From a virus, in the IMG/VR virus record IMGVR_UViG_3300007777_000003, positions 1 through 27,584 of that record: DNA of 27,584 nucleotides. One strand, given 5' to 3'. The notes under the pieces are model-generated. The model did no database searches. It was given only the letters and a program-made list of their open reading frames with translations, and had not been told where the DNA came from. Below, piece after piece: positions 3,398 through 23,320 of the stretch. The first letter of the stretch is position 1. Every line of letters starts with the position of its first letter. The position numbers and the translations under genes were made by a program.

Positions 3398-3590
3398 GGA
3401 TATGACTTTCTGTAAGAGTTATGAGAGCTGTGCTACTACTGACTGTGCCCATAGACTGACTGAGGATGTGTTCAAAGCATCTGAGGAAACAGGCCTACCC
3501 CTCATGACATTCGTAGGTATCCCTTTCTGCCACGTTCCCAAGAACCCTACTGAGGAAGAAGAAGAAGAAAAGACTAAGGAGACTGTATAA
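3384..3590 (+). CDS. small cysteine-rich protein, 68 aa, acidic tail
   Basis: Start chosen at ATG 3384 because AAGGGGG lies six bases upstream; ATG 3402 in the same frame is an alternative with a poorly spaced SD. The product has cysteines at 10, 16, 21 and 49 (C-x5-C-x4-C ... C), which recalls small Zn-binding phage proteins of unknown role, and ends in a run of Glu followed by K-T-K-E-T-V. Dyad copy 2 (3534-3545) encodes V-P-K-N here. The gene overlaps the one before by 14 nt. Confidence 0.65.
   Translation: MLVYRDMTFCKSYESCATTDCAHRLTEDVFKASEETGLPLMTFVGIPFCHVPKNPTEEEEEEKTKETV
3534..3545. repeat. dispersed dyad copy 2 (GTTCCCAAGAAC)
   Basis: Context CACGTTCCCAAGAACCCTA, in frame as V-P-K-N in the cysteine-rich small protein. 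Spaced 1803 bp from copy 1. Confidence 0.8.
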
Positions 3591-4269: not shown

Positions 4270-4439
4270 AGCTCGACGAGTCTGCTGACGTTAGGGTATA
4301 TCTGCTAGATGGTACATCCACTAGCTTCCCTAATGTTAGGCAGGCTATGCTATATGTCTGGGATAATACAGATAGTGTATCTAAAGTATTGTGCAATGGT
4401 AGTTCATTAGCTGTAGGAGATGACGTATGGAAAAGGTAG
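4266..4439 (+). CDS. small hypothetical protein, 57 aa, GTG start
   Basis: GTG at 4266 has a strong SD (GGAGGA, 4257-4262) and overlaps the preceding stop by 4 nt (GTGA). The product V/M-K-L-D-E-S-A-D-V-R-V-Y-L-L-D-G-T looks beta-rich with a small-domain pattern and ends D-D-V-W-K-R. The sigma-factor gene starts within its last codons. Not recognised. Confidence 0.6.
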   Translation: MKLDESADVRVYLLDGTSTSFPNVRQAMLYVWDNTDSVSKVLCNGSSLAVGDDVWKR

Positions 4440-5125
4440 AGACTAGTAATAATAATAATAAGTATGTAGAGGATGACACACTGGTACGTAGGGCACAGTG
4501 TGGGGATGCTGGGGCAACAGAGGAACTATTGGACACATACCAAGGACTCCTCTTGTGGCATGTAGGTAAGGAGTTCCGTGGTGGTCCACTGAGTAAGGAG
4601 GATGTCCTGTCCATAGGATATCTTACCTTCCTCACTGCTATTCGGGACTATAGTGGAGGCCCCTTCTATCCCTACCTAGCCCAATGTGTACGTGCTGAGA
4701 TTAAACGTGAGAGGCTGCGCTGCTCTACACAACTGGCAGTGCCTGTACGTACACTCCAGCTTGCTAAGGCTAAGCTAGGGGGTTACGAGCAGAAGGCTAG
4801 TGCTAATGCATGGCGTAGGGCTGATGAGTACCTTGCAGTATATGTCAGTGAGGGGGATGCCTATGTATCCGGTGACTCTAGTACTACTCATCTGGACTTA
4901 GTAGGGGAGGAGGATGACCACCTACTGCTGCATGACACTAAGGTATTACTGGCACACATTGATGAACTCCCAACACAGCTACGTAGAGTGATGGGCTTTG
5001 TTCTTCAAGAGTGTAGCTTCGCTGACATAGCAGCCATTACTGGTGTGTCTAGGCAGAGGGCGCACCAGCAGTACAAGCAGGCCTTAGAGCTACTACGTAC
5101 TAGGATGATGGGGGTGGTTGTATGA
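4427..5125 (+). CDS. RNA polymerase sigma-70-family factor (phage-encoded)
   Basis: The 232-aa product has region 2 at about residues 18-98: L-V-R-R-A-Q-x-G-D-A-x-A-x-E-E-L, then E-D-V-L-S-I-G-Y-L-T-F-L-T-A-I-R-D-Y, then Y-P-Y-L-A-Q-C-V-R-A-E-I-K-R-E-R-L. Region 4 lies at about 180-226 with a helix-turn-helix S-F-A-D-I-A-A-I-T-G-V-S-R-Q-R-A-H-Q-Q-Y. It most resembles the SigF/SigB/FliA group or ECF-like factors; region 1.1 is missing. It should bind host core RNA polymerase and redirect it, presumably to phage middle or late promoters. AGGAG at 4416-4420 precedes the ATG. The N terminus contains four Asn codons in an AAT repeat. Its target promoter is not identifiable here. Confidence 0.88.
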   Translation: MEKVETSNNNNKYVEDDTLVRRAQCGDAGATEELLDTYQGLLLWHVGKEFRGGPLSKEDVLSIGYLTFLTAIRDYSGGPFYPYLAQCVRAEIKRERLRCSTQLAVPVRTLQLAKAKLGGYEQKASANAWRRADEYLAVYVSEGDAYVSGDSSTTHLDLVGEEDDHLLLHDTKVLLAHIDELPTQLRRVMGFVLQECSFADIAAITGVSRQRAHQQYKQALELLRTRMMGVVV

Positions 5126-5438: not shown

Positions 5439-5896
5439 TGGTGACCAAGGTTCCTAAGAACCCTCATATCAGTAACTATGAATTAGTCGAGGATATGTCA
5501 GTGGTGGCTGACATAGTCTCAGAGTACGTTAAGGAAACTGAGTTGCATATAGAGACTATCCCCCATAAGAGTACTACGTGTTACTCACTGTCACTTAATG
5601 TGATTGACAATGTTAGGATATGCTCAGCGTGTAGGGAGGTGTCGGATTTAACTGGACGTGCTACTATTGATACTATTGTTAGGTCTATACGCCGTGACCT
5701 AGTATATGGGATGCGTAAACACTTAGATGTGTACGTCCACCCCGCAACTGGCCTCTATGCTATCTATTGGGAGGGCAGGGTCATGGCAAGGGGTTTGCCA
5801 CGAACCTACTCCTCCTCTAGTGCTGCAGCTATATCTTGGGGCTTAGCACATATTAAAGCTCCACCCCACTCACCGCTTGCTTATCCTGCTGTCTAG
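5435..5896 (+). CDS. hypothetical protein, 153 aa, last gene of the rightward operon
   Basis: ATG-ATG at 5435; overlaps the previous stop by 4 nt. The protein starts MMVTKVPKNPHISNY and has a mixed alpha/beta pattern with C-S-A-C-R-E (two Cys) in the middle and R-S-I-R-R-D-L-V-Y-G-M-R-K-H-L later. The last 14 codons overlap, on the opposite strand, the 3' end of the metallopeptidase-like virion gene, so two operons end inside each other. Dyad copy 3 lies at its 5' end (5450-5461), encoding V-P-K-N. Not recognised. Confidence 0.7.
   Translation: MMVTKVPKNPHISNYELVEDMSVVADIVSEYVKETELHIETIPHKSTTCYSLSLNVIDNVRICSACREVSDLTGRATIDTIVRSIRRDLVYGMRKHLDVYVHPATGLYAIYWEGRVMARGLPRTYSSSSAAAISWGLAHIKAPPHSPLAYPAV
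5450..5461. repeat. dispersed dyad copy 3 (GTTCCTAAGAAC)
   Basis: Context AAGGTTCCTAAGAACCCTC, 15 bp into the last rightward gene. Spaced 1916 bp from copy 2. Confidence 0.8.
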
Positions 5897-7166
5897 GTAC
5901 TAGGCTATATGTAGCACCTAGTCCCACACCCCAGAGTACCTTGCCCTTCTCACCGGAGGGCAGGGTTACTTCTTCCGCTACGTTAATCTCCTTAAAGAAC
6001 TTATCCATAGCCTTAACCAACTCAGGTGTCTCCCTCTTAAATGGGTGTACTGGCGACATCTTACTGTTACCTTTCAGTTTATGATTAGCATATACCTGAA
6101 ATGACCTAGCTAATAGCTCAGGGTCAGTGGCCCAATAAGGGTCTGCCGTAGTCTTAGCATCCTTAGCTAGACTTCTCTCATAGTATGACCCATCCTTAAC
6201 CTCATTGCCCAGCGTGTACATAGTCCTTCGGAGATTCATCCAAGCACTACGTAACTCTGGTCGCATATCAGGTAGACTCACCTCAGATAGGTCCTCACTC
6301 ACCATTGAGTCATTACTCAATCTCTCCTTACCAGTCCTAGATACACTCAGTGGCTCTCCAAGACTATTCCTCTGTACTTTATACTTAGGATTGTTCTTAT
6401 GATACATCGCAAACATCTGACCATCGAGTAGATGGAACAGCTCATGTAGGTGTGTTGTAGTATCATCCTTAACCCTAGAGGAAATAGTAGAAGTCCTCTC
6501 CATATACTCACCAAGGGCTGTCCTAGTCCCTACTCCAACTTCATCAAGACTCCCATCCTTACGTTTAGAGAATGTAGGTACGTACTCTTCTGGGTCTAAG
6601 TAAGCAACTCTTAGTTCCCCGTAGTGTGACATAGCCTGAGCATCTAAGCCTGTTACTTCCTCAAACTGCTGGAAGGACTTATCCCATAGACCTAACTCAT
6701 CCTTATCCAACATCAAATCGAAGTCCACATGAGGGTACTTATCTGCTGTCTTCTCCCACATCTTAACTGTCTCTGGTTTACGTGAGTTAGCTACCCTTAG
6801 CTGGTACTGCTGTGAGCGTATGTTAGCACTTAGACTACCATACTCTAATGGGTTACCTGAGAGTAGCTGTTCCTTCACACTCTGACTGAAATCATCCTTA
6901 GCCATATCCAGCTCCATCTGTACATGGGATACTGGGTCGAAGTTCTTGTTAGCAAAGGCTGAAGGCTGCTCCCCCTCATCTACTGCACCCATCATCGACG
7001 GCGTAGCTGGTGCAGGCTCCATACCCCCTGCACTCAACTCATCCATCGCCCCCTTCATAGGTGTGCCTACCTCAATGGGTCCCATAGGTGCCTTAATCGC
7101 AGCACCCTCAGCTACCTCATCGAGACTCTTCCCTGCCATCTTTCCCATCGCACGTAGCGCACCCAT
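5853..7166 (-). CDS. virion-associated protein with HExxH metallopeptidase motif
   Basis: The 437-aa product is last in the late operon; its ATG overlaps the stop of the 762-aa gene (TAATG). Residues 1-70 are Gly/Ala/Pro/Met-rich and probably flexible. H-L-H-E-L-F-H-L-L-D at 239-248 contains the Zn-binding HELFH (241-245). About 105 residues on, D-P-E-L-L-A-R-S-F (348-356) has a Glu in the position of the third gluzincin ligand. The HExxH...(S/D)PxExxARxF pairing matches metallopeptidase-like domains found in large polyvalent phage proteins. Its place after the internal virion proteins suggests it is packaged and injected, or acts in virion maturation. Activity is inferred. The C terminus (K-G-K-V-L-W-G-V-G-L-G) looks like a short hydrophobic strand. 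Confidence 0.72.
   Translation of the reverse strand: MGALRAMGKMAGKSLDEVAEGAAIKAPMGPIEVGTPMKGAMDELSAGGMEPAPATPSMMGAVDEGEQPSAFANKNFDPVSHVQMELDMAKDDFSQSVKEQLLSGNPLEYGSLSANIRSQQYQLRVANSRKPETVKMWEKTADKYPHVDFDLMLDKDELGLWDKSFQQFEEVTGLDAQAMSHYGELRVAYLDPEEYVPTFSKRKDGSLDEVGVGTRTALGEYMERTSTISSRVKDDTTTHLHELFHLLDGQMFAMYHKNNPKYKVQRNSLGEPLSVSRTGKERLSNDSMVSEDLSEVSLPDMRPELRSAWMNLRRTMYTLGNEVKDGSYYERSLAKDAKTTADPYWATDPELLARSFQVYANHKLKGNSKMSPVHPFKRETPELVKAMDKFFKEINVAEEVTLPSGEKGKVLWGVGLGATYSLVPRQQDKQAVSGVEL
5899..5965 (+). terminator. candidate terminator hairpins after the rightward operon
   Basis: Two inverted repeats follow the + strand stop at 5896. ACTAGG/CCTAGT (5899-5922) has an inner CTA/TAG pair. CCTTGCCCT/AGGGCAGG is at 5939-5963 with TTACTTCTT just after. 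Neither has a clean T-tract and both lie in the coding sequence of the convergent gene, so codon constraint could explain them. A stop for early transcription is expected near here, hence the listing. Confidence 0.25.
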
Positions 7167-9454
7167 TAACGTGACCCTCCTGCATACTGATACGTCTTAG
7201 ACTTACTATCCCAATTATAACGTAGCTTATCACTTGATAGGGTGTAGTAAGGGACTTTACCATAGTCATCCCTAGACTCTACTCCATCCACTAGCTCAGT
7301 CAGGTTCTTAGGAACCCCCTTAGACTGTATTGTCATGATACCACCTGCACTATCGTAGACGTAGACATTCCCATCAAGGACTTGGTACTTATTCAAGGCA
7401 CCTGCTGCGTTGTGTGTTATCTGTGCTGCAGCCCTCTCACCTTTACCTTCACCAACTACAAACATCAGTGGGATATTACTACCCTTAACAGTAGAGAACT
7501 CACCCATACCACTACGTACAGTATATGCGATAGCTGCATTCTCTTTATCTACATCTCTTACATACTTCTCATCTAGTAGACCATCAAACAAGATACTATC
7601 ATTAACAGTAGAGGCTACACTCTTAACCCTAGCATGGTCCTGTACACGGAAACCTCTTACCCAAGGGTTAGGGGACCAGTTATTTCTATTCTGTGGCGAG
7701 AGTGCCCGTGTTGGTGTTAGCTTACCGTCAGCACCTACCTCCATAAGAGGGAGCTTACCGAACTGGTCCGATGAACCACGTACCTTACTGATGACCTCCC
7801 CTACTTCCCTCTGTACTGAGTGGGCTACAAGATTACGTACTCTATCATGAGCATCCTTGAACTCCTGCTGCTGTTCTGGTGAAGCTGTACCTAACCACTT
7901 GACTAGGTTATCACTTACCCCCTCACTACCAACAGTCTTGAGTAGTCCCTTGAACTCTGGAGTCTCATACATGTCCTCATTCACTGCAGTCAACTGCTTA
8001 ATGACATCCGTATAGATAGGTGTCAACTCTTCTGGACTTGCTTTAGTCAATGCACCTGTATCTACTGCTGCCTGTAGTAGAGCATTAGTCATGCCAATAG
8101 ATGTAGCTGTTACCTTATTACTTCTATCACCAAACTCTTTACCCTGTCCCTTATAGTACTGAGCAATCTCTGCATCTACTTTAGTAGGGCTCTTCTTACT
8201 GTTGCTGAGGTAGGTAAGTACCTTATCATCTACACTAGCCCTGAACTCCTGATTGAGTTTCCCCTCCATGAACTTAGTAGCTGCTGAACGTGGGTTAGAC
8301 TTACCCATGAGTACTGCAGCACTCCAACTAGGGTACTTCTCCTGCATCCTCAGCTCTGTCATGTGCTTATCAATCTTAACTGATTCACCTGTACGTGTGG
8401 CAATATCGTACTGTGCCAGCATAGCCTTAGTTGAGTCCACTCTAGCCTGTAACCCAGCTAGTGTACGTGTGACTTCTCCATCCTTGAAGTTAGTCCCTAC
8501 ACTTGCAGCCTCTAGTTGTGCCTTCTGTGCCTCAAAGTTAAGTAGGTCACCTTGGGATTTGACTAGCTCTGCCTGTAGTGGTTCAACATTCTCTGAGGGG
8601 ACCTTACCCTGTGCATCAAGGAAGCCACTGAGTGTAGCGAACCGGCCCTGCGTCTCTACTGTGAGCACATCGGACTGTGCCTTAACTGTAGAGAGCCAAG
8701 ACTCTGTCATAATGGAAGACTTCTTAGCCTCAGCCTGTTCTCTGGTCAGCTTACCAATACGCAGCTCCTGCTCCTGCAGTGCTAGTTCAGCCTTATGCTT
8801 ATCTGATGCAGTTTTAGCTGCCTCCTCGATGCTCTGTGTCTTAAGACGTGTACTATAGGAAGTCTCCCACCCTTGCTTAGTTACATCTACGCCCATACGT
8901 ATAGCATCTAGGCGTACATCCCTAGAATCCTGTCGTTCAGCAGCTTCCCTCTGCATACGCAACTTCATGTAGCGTCCACCGGGGTCATACCCAAGTTTAT
9001 CAGCAGAGTACTGCCTAATCTCATCTGCCCAACCGGGTGCCATCTGCTCTACTCTACGAATAGCCTCATCTGCCTTCAGTGCAGCCATCTCCGCATTACC
9101 ACCATGAGATGCCTTCAATGCAGCCATGTCAATAGAGTCCTTACTCTCTGCCTGTAGTTTCTGTACAGATGAAGGGGTGTCAATGAATGGGTTAGAGTCA
9201 CCATCGGCTATCTTCTGACTATCTGTCTTGTTCTCTTGGGTTCTTAAGAACTTATCACCAGCAGCCTTACCTTCCTTGTATGCTTTGTTCTTAAGGTAGG
9301 CCTTGCCTCCAGCCTCAGCAGCCTGACCTAGAGCTGTAATACCTTCAGCTAATCCTGTGTTCAGTACTTTAGTAGTACGTCCCCCTGTGGTAGAGGGAAT
9401 ATCCATAGGATTCTGTACTCCAGTAATCTCTGCTTCAAAAGGTGCCTTAGCCAT
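7166..9454 (-). CDS. internal virion protein, T7 gp15-like (762 aa)
   Basis: The length is close to T7 gp15 (747 aa) and the position between other internal core proteins fits. Residues 1-110 are Gly/Ala/Lys-rich; about 110-340 is charged and helical with long coiled-coil-like stretches (A-E-L-A-L-Q-E-Q-E-L-R-I...). The C-terminal 150 residues look globular and beta-rich. Such proteins form the core on the portal and are ejected to build a channel for DNA entry. The ATG follows the upstream stop by one base. Dyad copies 4 and 5 lie inside. Assignment is by size, composition and context, not by a catalytic motif. Confidence 0.7.
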   Translation of the reverse strand: MAKAPFEAEITGVQNPMDIPSTTGGRTTKVLNTGLAEGITALGQAAEAGGKAYLKNKAYKEGKAAGDKFLRTQENKTDSQKIADGDSNPFIDTPSSVQKLQAESKDSIDMAALKASHGGNAEMAALKADEAIRRVEQMAPGWADEIRQYSADKLGYDPGGRYMKLRMQREAAERQDSRDVRLDAIRMGVDVTKQGWETSYSTRLKTQSIEEAAKTASDKHKAELALQEQELRIGKLTREQAEAKKSSIMTESWLSTVKAQSDVLTVETQGRFATLSGFLDAQGKVPSENVEPLQAELVKSQGDLLNFEAQKAQLEAASVGTNFKDGEVTRTLAGLQARVDSTKAMLAQYDIATRTGESVKIDKHMTELRMQEKYPSWSAAVLMGKSNPRSAATKFMEGKLNQEFRASVDDKVLTYLSNSKKSPTKVDAEIAQYYKGQGKEFGDRSNKVTATSIGMTNALLQAAVDTGALTKASPEELTPIYTDVIKQLTAVNEDMYETPEFKGLLKTVGSEGVSDNLVKWLGTASPEQQQEFKDAHDRVRNLVAHSVQREVGEVISKVRGSSDQFGKLPLMEVGADGKLTPTRALSPQNRNNWSPNPWVRGFRVQDHARVKSVASTVNDSILFDGLLDEKYVRDVDKENAAIAYTVRSGMGEFSTVKGSNIPLMFVVGEGKGERAAAQITHNAAGALNKYQVLDGNVYVYDSAGGIMTIQSKGVPKNLTELVDGVESRDDYGKVPYYTLSSDKLRYNWDSKSKTYQYAGGSR
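7304..7315. repeat. dispersed dyad copy 4 (GTTCTTAGGAAC; minus GTTCCTAAGAAC)
   Basis: Context on the minus strand GGGGGTTCCTAAGAACCTG, in frame as V-P-K-N in the 762-aa protein. Spaced 1854 bp from copy 3. Confidence 0.8.
9240..9251. repeat. dispersed dyad copy 5 (GTTCTTAAGAAC, perfect palindrome)
   Basis: Context CTTGGGTTCTTAAGAACTTAT near the 5' end of the 762-aa gene, in a codon phase different from copies 2-4 (peptide K-F-L-R-T). A 9-of-12 partial match follows at 9287 (GTTCTTAAGGTA). Spaced 1936 bp from copy 4. Confidence 0.8.
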
Positions 9455-12400: not shown

Positions 12401-14273
12401 GCATGTTAAGCTTATTACCGTTATCTTTCAACCATGAAGTGAAGTAACCAGTACCTTTCATCCAAGCACCTGTCCTAAAGAAGGGTTCATCTAGGATGTC
12501 CTTGACTACATCGTACTCATGGGTCTTATCGTACTTGATATAGAACTCTGGTGTGGTCATATCTGCGTACTTAACATCACCATCAATAGGATGGAAGTCG
12601 CCTGTTGCAGCATCCCTAAGGATTACCTCAGCGAAAGGTTCTTGGGAACCCCCTAACTTTTTCCTAGCACCTAGTGCATCTATGTATGTAGGGAAGCCAC
12701 CCTCATTTGCACCGTAGACTACGGAGACATCCACTGATTTAGAGTCGCCTGCAATACCTTTGGTATCCTTTGGTGAGGTGAACTTGAACTCATGCACCTT
12801 GACACTATCACCAGTGTTACGGAGTGCAGACTCGATACCTACCTGAGCTGCCCTGCGTTCTGCTGGTGTCAGTACGATAGCCTTAGACCTAGTATCAGAC
12901 AAGATAGCAGCTTCGTTATCAGCCAACTTCTGTAGGTTCTCAAGGAGTTTAGGGCGTGAGCCAATAGCTGTCAGGTCAACTGCAGCATCTTCCTTAGGTC
13001 CTGTATTTAGGATTTGGATAGCATCCTGTACTAGGTCCATCTCCTCCTCTTTACCTGCAATCAACTCTGCTGTCTTAGCATCAGCTACCTTACCGTGTCT
13101 GCCTAGCTGTGCTTCGGCCTGTGTGATGACGGACTCTGTACGCTTACCCAACATCTTAGCTGCGGCAGATGTGGCATTAGAGGACTTAAGCATCTGCTTA
13201 ACCATCTTGATAGGCTTAGTCACTACCGACAATAGGCCTGAAGTTGCTGCATCTGTAACGCTCAGTGTATTATCTACGATACGGTCACCTGTACCATAGT
13301 CCAGTAAGGAGTCCCTAATCTCAGCGGCTAGGAAGAAGTTAGTATCCCCAACCACACCACTGTTCTGCTCAATGAACTGGTCGATACGTGCAATAGAAGC
13401 ATCCTGCTCTTCAGGACTGAGCTTACGGAATGCTGTTACCATATCATCCTTAGCCTCACCTGCAAGCAGTGGGCCGTAGAGGTAGGCCATAGGGTTGCCA
13501 GCCTCACCTTCTTTACGCACAACCTCAGAAGCCTGACGCATCTTATTGCCCCAAGTCAACGGCAACACAGCACCTACAAAGTCCAGTGTTAGGTCCCACA
13601 TGTCCTTACTTTCCCACATCTCGCGTGTGCCTTTATCGAGCATCTGCTGCTGCTTGATTGCATGTAGCTGACCTTCGAGCATAGATGTAGAACCACTAAC
13701 GTAGTCCTCCTGCATGGTCTGCACCATCTGATTCATCTGTGTGTCTGCCTCACGCAGCCAAGGGTGATTCAATGCGCCTGCCTTGTCCTCAACAGCAGGG
13801 TTATTGATTACATCCTGTACAACAACCTCCTGTTTCTTAGCTACGTATGCCTGCTGTGCCTGCTGTGCTAGGATTTGTGCCCCTTCACGGGATAGGATAC
13901 CAGCCACCAAACCCCTAGCCTTCTCAGTGTCTCCACCTGCAACGGTAAGGGCATCTGCTTCTATCTGCATCTTCTCTGGTGTACTGAGCGGTGCCTCTAC
14001 TTCCTCCTTAAGTACAGTATCAGCCCATGTTTCCTCCTCACCATCAGTAGGCCAAGTGGTAGTGTCCTCACCATATCGCATAGTGTTAGCAATATTCAAG
14101 GCATCCTCAGACGTAGGGTCGGATGAGAAAGCTGCTACACTTGGGGACTTAACAATGTCCTCCTGTACAGTGCGTTGACTAACCTGTGCTGACTGTGTTA
14201 CACCAACAGGTTCCTGTGTGACTCTGATTTCTTCACCAACTGTACCAGCTAACTCATCTTCACGTAATGCCAT
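9456..14273 (-). CDS. very large internal virion / DNA-ejection protein (1605 aa)
   Basis: The largest gene in the window. Its position after the gp14-like gene and its size suggest the role of T7 gp16 (1318 aa). Residues 1-200 are acidic and Gln-rich. The middle is charged and mostly helical. About residues 1050-1100 (I-A-M-N-P-G-K-Q-I-L-L-Q-G-T-Q-F) and 1265-1290 (G-G-L-A-L-A-W-G-T-G-G-V-F-A-G-G) are hydrophobic and could enter the host membrane at ejection. I see no lytic transglycosylase signature (E-S-S/T...G-L-M-Q) like that at the N terminus of T7 gp16. Start ATG is preceded by AGGGG. Dyad copy 6 lies inside. Function inferred from context. Confidence 0.72.
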   Translation of the reverse strand: MALREDELAGTVGEEIRVTQEPVGVTQSAQVSQRTVQEDIVKSPSVAAFSSDPTSEDALNIANTMRYGEDTTTWPTDGEEETWADTVLKEEVEAPLSTPEKMQIEADALTVAGGDTEKARGLVAGILSREGAQILAQQAQQAYVAKKQEVVVQDVINNPAVEDKAGALNHPWLREADTQMNQMVQTMQEDYVSGSTSMLEGQLHAIKQQQMLDKGTREMWESKDMWDLTLDFVGAVLPLTWGNKMRQASEVVRKEGEAGNPMAYLYGPLLAGEAKDDMVTAFRKLSPEEQDASIARIDQFIEQNSGVVGDTNFFLAAEIRDSLLDYGTGDRIVDNTLSVTDAATSGLLSVVTKPIKMVKQMLKSSNATSAAAKMLGKRTESVITQAEAQLGRHGKVADAKTAELIAGKEEEMDLVQDAIQILNTGPKEDAAVDLTAIGSRPKLLENLQKLADNEAAILSDTRSKAIVLTPAERRAAQVGIESALRNTGDSVKVHEFKFTSPKDTKGIAGDSKSVDVSVVYGANEGGFPTYIDALGARKKLGGSQEPFAEVILRDAATGDFHPIDGDVKYADMTTPEFYIKYDKTHEYDVVKDILDEPFFRTGAWMKGTGYFTSWLKDNGNKLNMHIMDMLNVSEDTRFATRGKLRDHAKAFVDLKHESKGRVLNMLEEGSKHVVRNAEGEKVSIGKNYTLDELIHKYPDITDKEVEGYFTARSLMDLTDSIQNTELRRELDRLGYKDYQIGKGGSRHIARPLTQRKPTPSEVHSMLDPVSGKVVEATQELIDDVYVKGGHLARLHSSEVIGSTRVDHMLVRNGKHMKELPPRVLNYREGYIHRFYKEKWFVKTTSPVRYKGSADVHTQTVAAYSTREEALAHKFDSETQARIDSGELTLKEPALDRSAGLTDAGEIEALKSGGRLFTAKRGDQLKGAAMEDKANVEDIMTSMEKDIDSVSYLASHGDIIANLEARFTKEFSDEIDPNTGRLREGASMEAQEAQGILELYKGVPAFSDKVVRSNMIKLSNWLEDKGKLGKYASKVTWNRSGFSLAQVARSATYATFIAMNPGKQILLQGTQFLMLAGAHPIQASKALGQAFAFHTAYLARNSKHADRIEKAASIAAGVSKEEFRAMSAALHESGLLQSLTNHAMLQATDMFRGSRKYETGMARLGQAAGNVAKAPMNVAQKAGFQAGEAHNLTVSWLMVHNIWKEENRGVKWVGNTDIAAEWAAKTRQWTLNANKMGSFKFQRGILATATQFWAFQLKSWLAVTSSQAFTKAERARMFGGLALAWGTGGVFAGGLWDKVAQELDIRIEQDTRDKIEHGLVDYYLNEAATALGGLDASGNKSAIDFSGAMSPLNGAGLIVDAFSKEGTIGGLATGISGYTFSAYINAYKFAAEAWRSPDVSTEEAARTTVTRFLTALPIVGNAQRGIMAHNLLRHISKSTLTPDAQITASEAVMLGVSGFMSRKELAAIELRMQSGEDFRDYQDMGKHLAQHFNDKAFKSLNEYGDIPPKMWFEIEEHFQAVLTDLPHKAREIVRRSFEKYFKGVSVENDAMAQYFDGAFQITPDKDRTMQQMLQDPRLNETQKKDLEVLLDEMYDNNKLMNLLGDK
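12638..12649. repeat. dispersed dyad copy 6 (GTTCTTGGGAAC; minus GTTCCCAAGAAC)
   Basis: Context on the minus strand GGGGGTTCCCAAGAACCT, in the 1605-aa gene, in a codon phase giving G-S-Q-E-P. Spaced 3398 bp from copy 5. Confidence 0.8.
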
Positions 14274-15222: not shown

Positions 15223-17675
15223 CGTGTGTTACCTGATGTGAATGTTGCCCAGCCTAGTACATGCATATCATTAGTCCCCGTACTCTCTAGTCTTAACTGC
15301 ATAGCCCTACCGCTCCCTCTAACATTATGTTTCGATACTATCACAGACTGCCCATAGTTAAGTGGGTAAGTCCCTACTGCAGAAGGTATAGTAAGTGGGC
15401 GTACAAACTTGTATGCCTCCTCCTGTTTAGTAAACAATCCACTACTTACATCATCAGCCCAATCAAACTTATACTGCAGCATACACGAAGAGGGCTGGTC
15501 GATTACACCATCAGTCACTGTCTCCTCAGTCCTCTTGAAGAACAGATGAATATCATCTATGCTCTTATTCCTCATAGCATCGCCCATGAGTTCATGAGTA
15601 GTCTCCATATACGATAAGTATTCCACGCCGATACCGTCAGATGTCTCCCAATCAAGGAGACTATTCTTATAGAGTACTGAGAAGCGTACCTGCATACTTG
15701 TAGCAGTAACCTGATTAAAGGTAAGGAACCTTACCATGCTCTCATAGTCAGGTGCTACACTTGAGGAGTTAAGGGACTGTACTACTCCAGCAATATATGG
15801 GTTCGCTACACTGTCCCCTGAGATTGTGCCTGTGTACCATGCCTCCAATACCAAGTCCAACGTCAATGTCTTGTTGCAGTAGTCTGGATTGTTACCATCT
15901 AAGACCTCACTGTATGCCCACTTGACCTCCCTCTCTAGTGGGTCGTAGACTCCCTTAACATAGGGCAGACTCCCATTACTTACACTGTTAATACGTGACT
16001 GTATGCTTGCCTGTGTTATGTTACTTGCTGCCATAAGGAGTGTGTTGTTATCTAACTGCACTAGGTAGATACCTGAACGTGACCAGTACATGATAGAGCC
16101 TTCAACTTCAACGATACTATCTGGAGAGGTACACCCTACATTAGTTACCTTGTTTACACTAAACCCTGTAGCACTGAAACCTGTATCTGCTGTTCCTTGG
16201 ATATGCCACACGCCGTTGTGCGCGAAGACAATCAAACCTAAAGAGGAGACTACCATCTTAGTGATAATCCCTGCCTCTGGTATAGTAATGGTGCCTCCAT
16301 CAGATGCTACTAGGTCCATCACCACCTCTGATGTTGGGTCTGCGTCCATGTAACAATGGTGAGCATCCTGTATAGGGTCCTCAATTAGTCGGGAGTAGAG
16401 TATAGTCCCACTATATTGGTTATCCTTAATTCCACTGTACCATACCCTACCACTATAGAAGACTGTAGTAGAGGGGCGAGCTGTAGTAGAGAAGTTAGTA
16501 GCGCCTGTTACATAGGAACTACGTGCCATGTTAAATGCGTTATACAGGTAGTGTCCCCGTGCTCCCTTCATACTACCGAACCAAATCTTATCCAATGTTT
16601 CTGGTGTGAAGACACCTACACTATTCTTACCATACCACCACACATCACTGTTGGATGGGGCATTGCCACCAATCACTAGCACTGACCAAACACCGCCTGT
16701 ATATGTACCTGTAGCTGTACTTGTATCTACTGATATTGTTACTGTAGTAGCAGCCAAACCACCTAGAACAATACCAGTAATAACATGGTTACCGTTAATG
16801 TTAGGGGAGCCTGCTGGTATAGAGATACCCGACAATGTTATCGAGGCACCTACGGTAAGTGCAGCATTGTTGATAGTGACAAAGGAGGTAGTAGCACCTG
16901 CTGTGATACTCGTTATACCTGTAGTTACTGGTGCGTTACCTGTCATATATGTTGACACATGGGTAGCTGTCCAGCCTTGGTTGAGTAGGTTGTACGCATG
17001 GTTAGGATTGCTTGCTACTAACGCAGCCCATGTGGAAGCAGGTGGACGCGCATCTACTGCCAGTCCGTCATCTACACCCATGAAGTCACGTATCTGTAGG
17101 TTGCCTGCTGTAGTACCTACGTAGTGCGTACTGTAGTTACCTGTCGCTGCATGATACTCAATGATGAATGGGTTAATGTTAGGGGCTACTACGAATGCAG
17201 TCCCTTTACCAAAGCTGATACTTACCTTATCTAGTCCTGTGTCTGCTGCTGCAACTGCTACGTTAACCATATCAATAGACGTATCCGCTGCCCCGCCACC
17301 GATAGCTGTGTTATCAAAGGTGATACCTACACCACCTGTACCTAGTACAGCGACATCCAGTCCTCTAATATGTAGTGTGTTCCCTATCTGTACGATAGTC
17401 TTATTATTTGTACCATCTCCACCAATACTCCTCCACTCATGAATGGAAGCTGTATGTGTTGCAAAGTAACCTGCTGTATGTGCGAATGTAATTGAGGCAG
17501 CAGCTCCACCATTCTCATAGTCAATACCCCTGCGCCGCTTACGTGTACCATCACGGCGAAGGTCCATGTTGTCCTCATCGCTGCTGCTGTTTTCAGGGGA
17601 CGTTAAAGGACTAGCCTCAGTGACTAGTCCCTTAACGTATGTAAAGTAGTTCTTCTGTGCTTGAGAACGTGCCAT
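15219..17675 (-). CDS. tail tubular protein B / tail stabilisation protein (T7 gp12-like, 818 aa)
   Basis: The N terminus (R-S-Q-A-Q-K-N-Y-F-T-Y-V-K-G-L-V-T-E-A-S) and P-E-N-S...D-E-D-N-M-D-L-R-R-D-G-T-R-K-R-R are hallmarks of podoviral tubular B / nozzle proteins (T7 gp12, 794 aa). A beta-rich segment of about 90 residues (248-338), full of Thr, Gly, Ile and Val with V-G-A-S-I-T-L-S-G-I and T-G-T-Y-T-G-G-V-W, interrupts the usual N-L-L-N-Q-G-W ... P-S-N-S-D-V-W-W block and looks like an inserted surface domain. AAAGGGG precedes the ATG. A 50-nt leader rich in TAAGTAA motifs separates it from the 72-aa gene. Confidence 0.85.
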   Translation of the reverse strand: MARSQAQKNYFTYVKGLVTEASPLTSPENSSSDEDNMDLRRDGTRKRRRGIDYENGGAAASITFAHTAGYFATHTASIHEWRSIGGDGTNNKTIVQIGNTLHIRGLDVAVLGTGGVGITFDNTAIGGGAADTSIDMVNVAVAAADTGLDKVSISFGKGTAFVVAPNINPFIIEYHAATGNYSTHYVGTTAGNLQIRDFMGVDDGLAVDARPPASTWAALVASNPNHAYNLLNQGWTATHVSTYMTGNAPVTTGITSITAGATTSFVTINNAALTVGASITLSGISIPAGSPNINGNHVITGIVLGGLAATTVTISVDTSTATGTYTGGVWSVLVIGGNAPSNSDVWWYGKNSVGVFTPETLDKIWFGSMKGARGHYLYNAFNMARSSYVTGATNFSTTARPSTTVFYSGRVWYSGIKDNQYSGTILYSRLIEDPIQDAHHCYMDADPTSEVVMDLVASDGGTITIPEAGIITKMVVSSLGLIVFAHNGVWHIQGTADTGFSATGFSVNKVTNVGCTSPDSIVEVEGSIMYWSRSGIYLVQLDNNTLLMAASNITQASIQSRINSVSNGSLPYVKGVYDPLEREVKWAYSEVLDGNNPDYCNKTLTLDLVLEAWYTGTISGDSVANPYIAGVVQSLNSSSVAPDYESMVRFLTFNQVTATSMQVRFSVLYKNSLLDWETSDGIGVEYLSYMETTHELMGDAMRNKSIDDIHLFFKRTEETVTDGVIDQPSSCMLQYKFDWADDVSSGLFTKQEEAYKFVRPLTIPSAVGTYPLNYGQSVIVSKHNVRGSGRAMQLRLESTGTNDMHVLGWATFTSGNTR

Positions 17676-17956: not shown

Positions 17957-17977
17957 TTATTATTATTATTATTATTA
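17957..17977 (-). repeat. seven tandem in-frame TAA stop codons
   Basis: On the minus strand the tubular A reading frame ends in seven consecutive TAA triplets, the first being the stop (17975-17977). The run ends directly before the AAGGGG ribosome binding site of the 72-aa gene. It is a trinucleotide microsatellite that could shrink or grow by slippage and so set the spacing between the two genes. Confidence 0.9.
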
Positions 17978-18931
17978 CTTACGCCCATAACCATAGACTA
18001 ACTTATCACCATCCTGTCTATTCTTATGGTCCTTCTTCTGCATGATTACCCGCTGCCTCTTAGCATCCCTCTCTTCCTGTGAGTCAACTACCTGCTTAAT
18101 CTTATTGAAGCACTGTGCCTTAGCCTGAGACAAGAGTAGTGGGAAGTGCTGTGCTGGGAGGTCAGGGACAAAGCTGTCACCTGCACTGATACCTACAACT
18201 ACGAAGGAGGCACCACCATCAACTACCGTAGCACCAATGATTGTACTGTACACTGGCATGATAGCTGCTGTAGTACCTGTGACGCTGCACCTGTAGTAGT
18301 AGGTGACACCTGTGGTTGCATCCAGTACTGCGATGACATCTCCAATGGTGTAGTCCGTAGATACTAGGTGCCCTGTGAATGGCGCACCCCATACAGGTTC
18401 TCTGAAGCCAAAGCACTGTGTCTTGGACTGCTGCATGGTGACATCCAAGTTACTATCATAGCTATCAAATACGATAGTAGTGTCATCAAAGGAAGTGTAG
18501 ATAGCTGGTGCTACGTCTGTACGGATGTTCAGTGTGACACCTGTAGTATCCGTTACTACTAGTACATTACTTGCTGTGCTTGCCCTAGAGTTAATCCTCT
18601 CTAGGAAGGTGAGTGGGTCTGTATAGGTAACAGTCCTATACTGGTCAGGGTCAGTGACAACTACCTTAGCGTTGTACTTCAACCACTCCACTCTGCGTAT
18701 GTTAGTTGGGATGGTCATGTGTGACGGACGTGCTACATCACCTAGACCTGTTAACTGGAATGTACTACCAAGGTGGGGCCAATTCTTCTCCTCCATCATC
18801 TTAGTGTACGTACTTTTAATAATGGTAGCTACACGTTCACTCTCTGCGGTAGCACCAATAGAGGCTACATTATCAGATGACATATCAGATAGAATATCCT
18901 GAGTCATTTCTAACCACGTCATCTTAGCCAT
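17975..18931 (-). CDS. tail tubular protein A / adaptor (T7 gp11-like, 318 aa) with inserted domain
   Basis: The N terminus (M-T-W-L-E-M-T-Q-D-I-L-S-D-M) and the C-terminal block (F-V-P-D-L-P-A-Q-H-F-P-L-L-L-S-Q-A-K) match the gp11/P22 gp4-type adaptor that seats on the portal. The family is about 200 aa; this one has extra length. Residues about 181-248 form a self-contained beta module: G-D-V-I-x-V, Y-Y-Y-R-C-S-V-T-G-T, P-V-Y-S-T, I-G-A-T-V-V-D-G. This pattern is found in many phage tail and fibre proteins as a mobile domain. AAAGGAG lies just before the ATG. It is the first gene after the capsid-end hairpin. Confidence 0.8.
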   Translation of the reverse strand: MAKMTWLEMTQDILSDMSSDNVASIGATAESERVATIIKSTYTKMMEEKNWPHLGSTFQLTGLGDVARPSHMTIPTNIRRVEWLKYNAKVVVTDPDQYRTVTYTDPLTFLERINSRASTASNVLVVTDTTGVTLNIRTDVAPAIYTSFDDTTIVFDSYDSNLDVTMQQSKTQCFGFREPVWGAPFTGHLVSTDYTIGDVIAVLDATTGVTYYYRCSVTGTTAAIMPVYSTIIGATVVDGGASFVVVGISAGDSFVPDLPAQHFPLLLSQAKAQCFNKIKQVVDSQEERDAKRQRVIMQKKDHKNRQDGDKLVYGYGRK

Positions 18932-18974
18932 TACTTACTCCTTTACTCTCTTAATCATAACCATTAGAGGGAAA

Positions 18975-19002
18975 GGGGCAGAGTTCCTAAGAACCCTACC
19001 CC
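18975..19002 (-). terminator. candidate attenuator/terminator hairpin after the capsid genes
   Basis: The minus-strand RNA can form a 12-bp stem, GGGGTAGGGTTC pairing with GAACTCTGCCCC, with a TTAG loop: ten Watson-Crick pairs and two G-U pairs. On the plus strand the same two positions would be C-A mismatches, so the stem is tuned to the late transcript. It is followed by TTTCCCTCT, a weak T-tract. It lies between the capsid-associated gene and tubular A, as T-phi does after T7 gene 10. It may lower expression past the capsid genes or be a processing site. Confidence 0.5.
18983..18994. repeat. dispersed dyad copy 7 (GTTCCTAAGAAC), intergenic
   Basis: The only copy outside coding sequence; it forms the top of the 18975-19002 hairpin. 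Context CAGAGTTCCTAAGAACCCTA. Spaced 6345 bp from copy 6. Confidence 0.8.
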
Positions 19003-19017
19003 TACCTTCTTACTTAA

Positions 19018-19497
19018 TTAAACGCGAGGCTTAATGAAGTTGACTACTACTTTCGCAGTACCAGCAGTGAAGACACCTACAGCCGTGGTATTCAGAGCGA
19101 TGTCTGAATTGACTGATGGTACGTCCGCACCGATTGCAGCACCCGCTCCCTGATGTGCAGAGCCAGCCGTCAGTGATGCGGTCAGTACAGGGGCCAAGCC
19201 CGTTGAAGGGACCGTGGGACCTGCACTATCTTCAAAGTCCAGTGCCAGAGAGGTGCCACCCACCCAAGCAGTACCGACAACCATGTGAATATCCTTAATC
19301 ACTGAGCCAGCAGGAATCAGGGAATTAGCTGCCTGATTTACCTGATAGCCTACGGTTGCGGTAGACGTGTAATCAAAGTCAACAATAAGCTGACCACCGT
19401 AGCCGTCCATCTCCACTGCACCAGCTACGCTGTTCTCCACGAGCCGTGTACCGAAGTTCTGAATCAGACCATCATCGTTAGTATATAGAGTACCCAT
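19018..19497 (-). CDS. probable capsid-associated structural protein (159 aa)
   Basis: It follows the major capsid gene directly, 15 nt downstream with GGGGG as SD. The protein is beta-rich, with many Ala, Gly, Thr, Val and Ser and no Cys, and reads like a soluble virion component (G-Y-Q-V-N-Q-A-A-N-S-L-I-P-A-G-S-V-I-K-D). Position and make-up suggest a head decoration or minor head protein; I recognise no motif. The candidate hairpin lies just after its stop, so it would be made with the capsid protein at high level. Confidence 0.6.
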   Translation of the reverse strand: MGTLYTNDDGLIQNFGTRLVENSVAGAVEMDGYGGQLIVDFDYTSTATVGYQVNQAANSLIPAGSVIKDIHMVVGTAWVGGTSLALDFEDSAGPTVPSTGLAPVLTASLTAGSAHQGAGAAIGADVPSVNSDIALNTTAVGVFTAGTAKVVVNFIKPRV

Positions 19498-19512: not shown

Positions 19513-20448
19513 TTAAACCGCATTGCCGGATTCGACAACAACCAGATTCTCAGGACGATACAACTTAACACCGTAACGAGCAGTAGTGACATACTCTTCA
19601 CGCTGGAAGTCTTTATTGAACTCAGAATCTACTTTAGGCATCTGTCGCCATGCACCTACGAACGGCAGAATATCAGAAGCTGCAGAGAAGAACATGTTCT
19701 GTTTAACTGCAGCAGTAGTACCATCAGCAAGGTAGTTAGAAGTATATACGTCGAAGCCATATACATTCTTAACAAAGCGCATACCAGTAGCGATGCCACT
19801 AGATACAATGCCTTCCCATGCAGGGTTGTTACTTACGTTGGTGATGTTGGTCAGTGTATCCAATGTGTATGCAACAGACGGGTCAACAATAGCGACACGA
19901 CTTTCGTTGGATACGTTAGCCTTGGTCAGTGCCAAGGATGCGGTAGCGAAGTCAGCTACTGCCATTGCATTACCACCAACAAGTGCAGCACCTGTCGCTG
20001 TGAAGCGATGGTTACGGCCATTGATAGCCACGCCCGGGGTGCCTACTACACCAAGAGAAGATGCAAGGGCCATGATTGATGTTTCCAAGGACTCCTGAAT
20101 TGCACGGTTCTGCTTAGGTACGAAGGAAGCTACCAGACGGTCCATATAGAAACCATCCTGCATGTTCTGCTCAGTGATGTACGTAGCACTAGACTTGTAC
20201 TGGTCAATGGCGAACTGGAAGTTACCAGTATCCATTGCATCGTACACGACAGGGTCGTTCTCACTATAGTCACGGACAGTTGACTGACCGATGGATGGGA
20301 TGTTCAGTACGTTACCTTCAGGGAACTCTGACAACCAATCTACATATTTTGTACCCTGCAGCTCATCCAACAGAATGTCTTTGAGGTTCTGTGACCAGAC
20401 ACTTGAGCGGATAAGGTGGGCACTGTTTCCAGTTGAAAAACCAGCCAT
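19513..20448 (-). CDS. major capsid protein
   Basis: The 311-aa product starts M-A-G-F-S-T-G-N-S-A-H-L-I-R-S-S-V-W-S and contains a mid-region L-D-T-L-T-N-I-T-N-V-S-N-N-P-A-W-E-G and a late F-K-N/V-Y-G-F-D-V-Y-T-S-N-Y-L-type strand (V-K-N-V-Y-G-F-D-V-Y), as in HK97-fold capsid proteins of T7-like and SIO1-like phages. It is directly downstream of the scaffold. AAGGAG lies upstream of the ATG. Codons look more uniform and C-ending than in neighbouring genes, in line with high expression. No N-terminal maturation cleavage site is evident. Confidence 0.85.
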   Translation of the reverse strand: MAGFSTGNSAHLIRSSVWSQNLKDILLDELQGTKYVDWLSEFPEGNVLNIPSIGQSTVRDYSENDPVVYDAMDTGNFQFAIDQYKSSATYITEQNMQDGFYMDRLVASFVPKQNRAIQESLETSIMALASSLGVVGTPGVAINGRNHRFTATGAALVGGNAMAVADFATASLALTKANVSNESRVAIVDPSVAYTLDTLTNITNVSNNPAWEGIVSSGIATGMRFVKNVYGFDVYTSNYLADGTTAAVKQNMFFSAASDILPFVGAWRQMPKVDSEFNKDFQREEYVTTARYGVKLYRPENLVVVESGNAV

Positions 20449-21560: not shown

Positions 21561-23320
21561 TGCTGCATCATATCCATTTCTTCAACTCCACCTGCTCCGG
21601 GGTCTACCTGTCCTTCAGCACCTAACTGCTGTTCTGCTGCCTGCTGCAACCTAGCTGTCTCAAGCTGCTCTGCGACTGCTACGTTCTCCTCGAAGAGATT
21701 GTAGGCCTGTAGGTCTAGCTGCTCATCCATCAGACGTGCAATCTCCTTACCTGAGAAGTGGACTGCTACATCCTGTCGCTGACCAATAGGACTTCCAAGG
21801 AAAGAGTTAAGGTCCTGTACTAACTTAGCCTTAGCTGCGAAGTGCCTTGCACCTTTAGGCTTGAGCTGTCCTGTAGCCTTGAGGTCATCTGCATTGATAC
21901 TAATGAACTGTACAACACTAGCATCCTTACCAATCATACGCTCAAGACTAGGCTCTGCGCCTGCATGGAGCTTAGCGATACGGAACATCTCATTAACCAG
22001 CGGCTCTAGGAAGGTCTCCTCAAAGTGTGTAATCTTATTCTGGAAGATACGTGCGGCTGCATTCTGTAGCTGCTGTACTTCAAAGGCAGTCTTCTCACCG
22101 GGGGTACGGATACCCATAGCTTCCTTAGGTGCTCCAGCGAACTCTTCCATCCTACGTTCAAGTGCATCAATCTGGAAGTCTGCATTAAGGGCTGTAGTAT
22201 CTGGATGGAGGTACTGTACACTACCCTCAGCCCCTACGTAGATGTCCTCACCCTTAGCGAAGTCAGGGACATCACCAGCAATAATCTTAACAGGGTTAGC
22301 TATCTGGTCAAAGATGTCAGCCCTAAGATTCTCTAGGTGGTCGATGCGGTACTGCATACCTACTAGGTTAGCCAGTGGGCCCATAGCAATCAGGTTGTCT
22401 GGGCGAGTCCTCCAACCAGTATGCACCTTGAAGGTGACACCTGATACGTTACGGACGATATGTGTACCATCAACAACTGTAATGGTACGGTCCTCCAACA
22501 GCTCACCTGTAGCTGCATTGTAGATAGTACCCTCGAACTCAATAATCTCTACTAGGCCTGAGGTTATGTACTGCTCATACGTACCGAAGCCATCAATGCT
22601 GATGCCATCATACTTGTTCCTATCCTTAGTACCCATAGTGCTGTACCGAATACGTCTATCCTTGAGATAGGTAACGATGTCCATATTGTAGCGTAGGCTA
22701 GGGTTATCCTTAGCTTCACGTTCAAGTTCTCCAAGGTTCTTAAGAACCCTTGTGATAGTAGGAGACTTCTTGAAGGAGGTAGCTGTGATGTCGAACACCA
22801 CATCATAAGGTGACTTACGGATAGCCTTAGGGCCACTGTACAGTACTGTCTCAGTACCATCCTCTTCCTTACGCTTCTCTACTACATACTCAGTACTGGC
22901 AATCACATTACCATAATCAATGTAGTCATAGATTAAGTCTGATACCGTAGCCCTGAAGTTACTGGCATCTAGGCGGTTACGCATGTAGTTCTGTATGATT
23001 AGTTTAGTCTTAGCTGTAACACTATCCTTATCTGCACCTACCCAAGACAACCAGTTATCATTAGGGAAGAGTGCTGCCATGTAGTTAGCATGTAGGTTAT
23101 CCCGTAGCTGTGTCAGTTTAGGTAAGGTAGTTGAGTTGGAATGCTTGAGTGAACCAGTAGATGTGCCACGGGTATCAGTAGCAAACAGGAAGTCTCTAGT
23201 CTCCTTCCACTCTGCTTCTGCTCCAGCCCTAGCTGACTTCCAGCGTGTCCAAGTGTCCACAATCTGAGATGCCAGATGGTCTGCGTCCTGCCATTGTTCT
23301 AAGTCTAGTGTGTCTGCCAT
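21557..23320 (-). CDS. portal (head-tail connector) protein
   Basis: The 587-aa product has the portal-type layout: an N-terminal helical part (W-T-R-W-K-S-A-R-A-G-A-E-A-E-W), an N-D-N-W-L-S-W block, a wing, and a stem/clip block R-T-P-G-E-K-T-A-F-E-V-Q-Q-L-Q-N-A-A, then a Gln/Glu-rich C terminus with V-D-P-G-A-G-G. T7 gp8 is 536 aa. It forms the dodecameric ring for DNA entry and exit. It lies directly after terminase (1 nt from the TerL stop). Dyad copy 8 encodes V-L-K-N here. Confidence 0.88.
   Translation of the reverse strand: MADTLDLEQWQDADHLASQIVDTWTRWKSARAGAEAEWKETRDFLFATDTRGTSTGSLKHSNSTTLPKLTQLRDNLHANYMAALFPNDNWLSWVGADKDSVTAKTKLIIQNYMRNRLDASNFRATVSDLIYDYIDYGNVIASTEYVVEKRKEEDGTETVLYSGPKAIRKSPYDVVFDITATSFKKSPTITRVLKNLGELEREAKDNPSLRYNMDIVTYLKDRRIRYSTMGTKDRNKYDGISIDGFGTYEQYITSGLVEIIEFEGTIYNAATGELLEDRTITVVDGTHIVRNVSGVTFKVHTGWRTRPDNLIAMGPLANLVGMQYRIDHLENLRADIFDQIANPVKIIAGDVPDFAKGEDIYVGAEGSVQYLHPDTTALNADFQIDALERRMEEFAGAPKEAMGIRTPGEKTAFEVQQLQNAAARIFQNKITHFEETFLEPLVNEMFRIAKLHAGAEPSLERMIGKDASVVQFISINADDLKATGQLKPKGARHFAAKAKLVQDLNSFLGSPIGQRQDVAVHFSGKEIARLMDEQLDLQAYNLFEENVAVAEQLETARLQQAAEQQLGAEGQVDPGAGGVEEMDMMQQ
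22736..22747. repeat. dispersed dyad copy 8 (GTTCTTAAGAAC, perfect palindrome)
   Basis: Context AAGGTTCTTAAGAACCCTT in the portal gene, with extra flanking symmetry (CAAGG ... CCTTG). Spaced 3753 bp from copy 7. A half-site GTTCTTAA occurs 1837 bp further on at 24573. Confidence 0.8.

Follow-up and report, generated by a model that had tools for sequence, protein, structure and literature searches.

A conserved hairpin between the capsid and tail genes of a Zobellviridae-type phage contig as a probable leaky transcription terminator

We analysed a 27.6-kb IMG/VR contig (hereafter the window, meaning the whole stretch of DNA analysed), an incomplete genome of an uncultured bacterial virus, and found between its capsid and tail genes a hairpin (18974–19003, minus strand) that is probably a leaky intrinsic transcription terminator, or attenuator, at the end of the capsid genes in the late operon on the minus strand. 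The hairpin exists as a real structure, as previously observed; it is highly improbable by chance, its position is conserved in the family and it prefers the sense strand.

Gene order around the hairpin

The window has a two-arm layout in which plus-strand early genes (to 5896) meet a minus-strand structural block (5853–27516), the arms converging at ~5.85 kb. This layout, together with the homology of the major capsid protein (MCP) and of the tail adaptor to named members, places the virus in the Zobellviridae. On the minus strand, the MCP (major head protein) gene (19513–20448) is followed by a 159-aa gene that is decoration-like by position (19018–19497) and then by the hairpin, whose stem starts 14 nt past the stop of the 159-aa gene and ends 42 nt ahead of the tail-adaptor (tubular-A-like) gene (17975–18931; ribosome-binding site AAGGAG; PHROG 7592 tail protein). 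Homologues of the tail-adaptor product are annotated as “head completion adaptor” or “tubular tail A”. The site therefore lies between the capsid block and tubular A, as the preliminary description had placed it and as T-phi lies in T7, with the 159-aa gene also intervening after the MCP gene. No canonical sigma-70 promoter was found in the 42 nt between the hairpin and the tail gene, so that read-through is the obvious route to tail-gene expression. The closest relative (G001) has a homologue of the 159-aa gene in the same place; used as search probes, the 159-aa gene gave no matches and the tail-adaptor gene recovered one locus.

Several other features of the window were recorded. The tail-adaptor protein (17975–18931, minus) is extended at its C terminus by a region that weakly matches PHROG 20658, a head-decoration family, and looks like a domain insertion. 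A 17-bp hairpin (17600–17638, minus; −25.3 kcal/mol; ACGTTAAGGGACTAGTCACTGAGGCTAGTCCTTTAACGT) lies within the opening codons of the gene for the tail appendage (tubular-B-like), and G001 has a 10-bp hairpin (2236–2259) at the matching place. Another strong hairpin (5938–5966, plus) stands at the convergent arm junction, where cobaviruses (Zobellviridae) have a bidirectional rho-independent terminator between their two arms, according to PMC6775973. The early block ends with a sigma-factor-like gene (4427–5125, plus; PHROG 351, Pfam just below cut-off), which among annotated phages has only distant Bacillus phage homologues; its product could direct late transcription.

Structure of the hairpin

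The minus-strand RNA from 19003 to 18974 was predicted to fold into an unbroken 13-bp stem with a 4-nt loop (AGGGGUAGGGUUC-UUAG-GAACUCUGCCCCU; −21.6 kcal/mol) and two G·U pairs, whereas pairing on the plus strand is broken at exactly two positions (C/A and A/C mismatches). The sequence and coordinates given in the preliminary description were correct, and the 12-bp stem with two G-U pairs and two plus-strand C-A mismatches that it had proposed was recovered one A-U pair longer (12 bp if the closing A-U is excluded). Minimum free energies over 18960–19015 were −28.1 (z −3.7) for the minus strand and −21.0 for the plus strand, and the hairpin in the 89-nt gap was equalled by none of 2000 dinucleotide shuffles.

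The transcript contains the stable G+C-rich hairpin expected of an intrinsic terminator. The U-tract 3' of the stem (TTTCCCTCTAAT; 18962–18974, minus) is poor, with three U followed by CCC (TTTCCCTCT); the weakness noted earlier is thus real, and is compatible with a partial terminator. A d'Aubenton-Carafa-type terminator score, in our own implementation, gave a borderline +1.0 for this hairpin, the sole positive-scoring hairpin on either strand of the window among those with stem dG ≤ −8. It was missed by a simple terminator scan (at least five T in eight), and an Rfam search gave no match.

Comparative analysis

The decisive evidence for the hairpin comes from sequence comparison. A capsid protein search yielded 61 loci, to which G001 and G013 were added; the testable set comprised the 36 Zobellviridae-type loci with both capsid and tail-adaptor genes. 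A hairpin of dG ≤ −12 was found in the MCP–tail-adaptor interval of 34 of the 36 (30 by an automatic gap test, plus L019, L021, L052 and L054 from the hairpin listing), counts that overstate independence because the loci include near duplicates (L035/L036, L026/L028 and L043/L044). The two loci with no strong hairpin there were L025 and L050, and other late gaps (25–200 nt) had such a hairpin in 1 of 41 cases. The sense strand carried the strongest hairpin in 28 of the 34 loci and the antisense strand in three, with three ties. Terminator scores were positive on the sense strand in 15/36 and on the antisense strand in 0/36. Stem sequences vary among relatives (GGGGC-UUCG-GCCCC in several, long G-rich/C-rich arms elsewhere), so that structure and place are kept and sequence is not.

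Among named Zobellviridae, the junction hairpin was found in SIO1, P12053L, ICBM2, ICBM3, CRP-4 and CRP-5, and also in CVT22, Vibrio 1.253.O, Pseudomonas O4, MEP401, MEP402 and the metagenome-assembled genome GX1; the annotation tables consulted enter no terminator at the capsid–tail junction. A consensus sigma-70-like promoter (TTGACA ... TATAAT) directly follows the post-capsid hairpin in SIO1, P12053L, ICBM2, ICBM3 and CRP-5 (Siovirus/Veravirus isolate records with this arrangement: L422, L423, L425, L426 and L427), which makes full termination followed by re-initiation possible in Siovirus and Veravirus.

Many relatives have CCCC-TTTTT tails (L024, L030, L035, L045, L054 and L057), several have no U-run (L021, L051 and L058), and the closest relative has two hairpins, both negative-scoring (best −18.6). 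Because the window U-tract is weak, the main rival to a terminator is an RNA processing or stabilising hairpin, which would shield the capsid message at its 3' end or undergo RNase III-like cleavage, leaving capsid and tail messages to decay at unequal rates. A stem conserved with G·U asymmetry would suit such a role, as would a U-tract that is poor in the window and in about half of the relatives, down to the missing runs just listed. We nevertheless consider processing unlikely, as canonical terminator tails occur at the same place in the 15 positive-scoring loci and the antisense strand never scores.

Palindrome sites and a candidate reader protein

The palindrome GTTCYYRRGAAC (core GTTC-YYRR-GAAC) occurs eight times in the window, against ~0.4 expected for GTTC-N4-GAAC. 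Copies 1 (1731–1742), 3 (5450–5461), 4 (7304–7315), 5 (9240–9251) and 6 (12638–12649) lie inside genes, copy 2 (3534–3545) inside an ORF and copy 8 (22736–22747) inside the portal gene; copy 7 (GTTCCTAAGAAC; 18983–18994) supplies the hairpin loop together with the innermost 4 bp of the stem. Copies are spaced at ~1.85 kb in the window, where the evenness is slight (P 0.08); it is more marked in G015, G020 and G031, and we do not rely on it. The hairpins of relatives at the capsid–tail junction are all made from other sequence, none using the palindrome, and the putative terminator is therefore independent of it. On this comparison, the palindrome is a separate dispersed DNA layer and not the terminator's maker; either a terminator that was already there took up a palindrome as its inner stem, or two functions were combined.

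A subgroup of relatives carries a dispersed, genome-specific palindrome in 11–31 copies, shifting to GCTCTTAAGAGC or CGTTCCYRGGAACG, with CGTTCCCAGGAACG as a further variant. In G001 (82% capsid identity), the palindrome keeps this shape but differs in sequence (GCTCTTAAGAGC, 9–11 copies), and several copies immediately precede the Shine-Dalgarno sequence of an early gene. The 38 kb of G013 contain GTTCYTARGAAC 19 times exactly and another 7 times with one mismatch. Exact matches to GGTTCTTAAGAACC in viral contigs were mostly single and chance-like, but the search led to G013; a pattern scan added more palindrome contigs, most with proteins in common with G013. The base outside the palindrome core is genome-specific (G016 uses CGTTCCYRGGAACG). 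The Verrucomicrobia LexA box is TGTTC-N4-GAACA. A host-wide motif of this kind fits less well as the source of the palindrome, because the contigs bearing the motif cluster in a single phage clade and genomes vary in the outer base.

The carriers of dispersed palindromes included G001 (L177–L179), G013 (L195–L196), G015 (L395–L397), G027 (L398–L400), G031 and G016, and palindrome positions are partly conserved between carrier genomes (scaffold end, portal start and tail-adaptor start). Five further records (L209, L216, L228, L008 and L063) have their own over-represented palindromes (TTACTAGTAA, TTAGTGNCACTAA, GTTAACNNNGTTAAC), which may be the same kind of element. Integrases were found in G015, G020, G023, G028 and G016 and were absent from the other twelve records searched. 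The present survey found no isolate carrying a dispersed palindrome.

By its sequence pattern, the palindrome family looks like operator or stoperator sites, that is, dispersed operators of a putative repressor. Cluster A mycobacteriophage stoperators are many short repressor sites across the genome with immunity-specific variation (PMC9283540). The window-type palindromes are likewise many, short, genome-dispersed and varying, whereas stoperators are 13-bp, asymmetric and oriented with transcription and the window-type sites are palindromic and often intragenic, with a repressor that is putative. Copy 7 might alternatively owe its importance to a phage protein that binds the whole palindrome family, with the hairpin a by-product or a later addition. 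In favour of this, the phage subgroup does carry a true dispersed family whose sequence is genome-specific, and contact of its sites with non-coding DNA shows roughly a twofold excess (38 vs 17.4 expected), copy 7 itself lying in a gap. As an account of the hairpin, we find this improbable: relatives keep the hairpin with no palindrome at the junction, copy 7 is one base off the local 14-bp consensus, and a DNA-binding protein would need neither the extra 9 bp of its stem nor the strand asymmetry. Copy 7 also has the longest stem among 183 palindrome sites in eleven genomes (13 bp, with at most 11 bp at the 182 other sites). A functionless chance inverted repeat is scarcely credible given the shuffling result and the hairpin's retention in 34 of 36 relatives.

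An early protein family with the signature RSAKSVI...GK was present in each of the six long contigs with palindromes that were examined (G001, G013, G015, G027, G031 and G016), as well as in the short L295, and was found in none of eight long contigs lacking this palindrome (G006, G007, G008, G012, G014 and L434–L436); common ancestry could explain this co-occurrence. The family had no PHROG and no PDB match. Its predicted structure (mostly helical; mean pLDDT 74; only unnamed viral matches) neither supports nor excludes DNA binding. A 49–59-aa early protein common to the window and the closest relative was dropped as a candidate binder because no homologue was found in palindrome-bearing G013. 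A further, rather unlikely possibility is that the Zobellviridae-type subgroup has genome-wide palindromic operators, differing in sequence among phages (GGTTCYTARGAACC, TGTTCYTARGAACA, AGTTCYTARGAACT, CGTTCCYRGGAACG, TGCTCTTAAGAGCR) and read by undescribed RSAKSVI...GK early proteins as an immunity/silencing system; in the window, one operator would be fused into the capsid–tail terminator, where binding could modulate read-through.

Discussion

The borderline score of the window hairpin makes a partial, T-phi-like attenuator acting on host-type RNA polymerase the best-supported reading. A host-type RNA polymerase leaving the capsid and 159-aa genes would produce a nascent RNA that folds into the G-rich/C-rich 13-bp stem, and the short UUUCCCUCU tail would release some polymerases. 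Those remaining would continue and transcribe the genes for the tail adaptor, the tail tube and the internal virion proteins, and capsid protein would consequently exceed tail protein. We infer termination here, its partial nature and its stoichiometric purpose alike.

The proposal of an attenuator or processing site at the T-phi position is strongly supported by the conserved position, by strand preference and by the canonical U-tails of many relatives. Two points qualify it: a T7-type polymerase was not found in relatives, and the palindrome does not make the terminator. A search of 12 relatives for the single-subunit RNA polymerase family PF00940 gave no match, although the control search was silent too. 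SIO1 is described in PMC6775973 as having no T7-type RNA polymerase. We therefore assumed a host-type polymerase.

Expression of T7 genes 11 and 12 depends entirely on read-through of T-phi (PMC5592923). The window resembles T7 in having a hairpin just past the capsid gene with tubular A and B genes downstream. It differs in that T-phi stops the phage RNA polymerase, whereas a host-type enzyme is assumed here, and in its extra gene between MCP and hairpin, its weaker U-tract and the lack of sequence relationship. The T7-like Pseudomonas phage LUZ100 has a strong terminator directly after the MCP gene in transcriptome data (PMC10134795), which appears to make capsid transcripts exceed tail transcripts; unlike the window virus, LUZ100 belongs to the Autographiviridae and has its own polymerase, and its terminator was measured, whereas the window is known from sequence. 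The cobavirus terminator comes from the same virus family and is a rho-independent hairpin, as ours probably is, but lies at the convergent arm junction and not between capsid and tail genes; the available text of PMC6775973 gives a terminator at the arm junction only and describes no capsid–tail hairpin.

What sets the window copy apart is that a short DNA palindrome, recurrent throughout the genome, forms the core of its hairpin. The palindrome layer hints that these phages possess an undescribed DNA-binding system that diversifies rapidly. At the capsid–tail junction, the hairpin sequence turns over while its position and strand persist. The T7 capsid–terminator–tail layout would thus be retained throughout a large family of environmental phages thought to have no RNA polymerase of its own, and the control of capsid:tail stoichiometry that it may exert is directly testable with host RNA polymerase.
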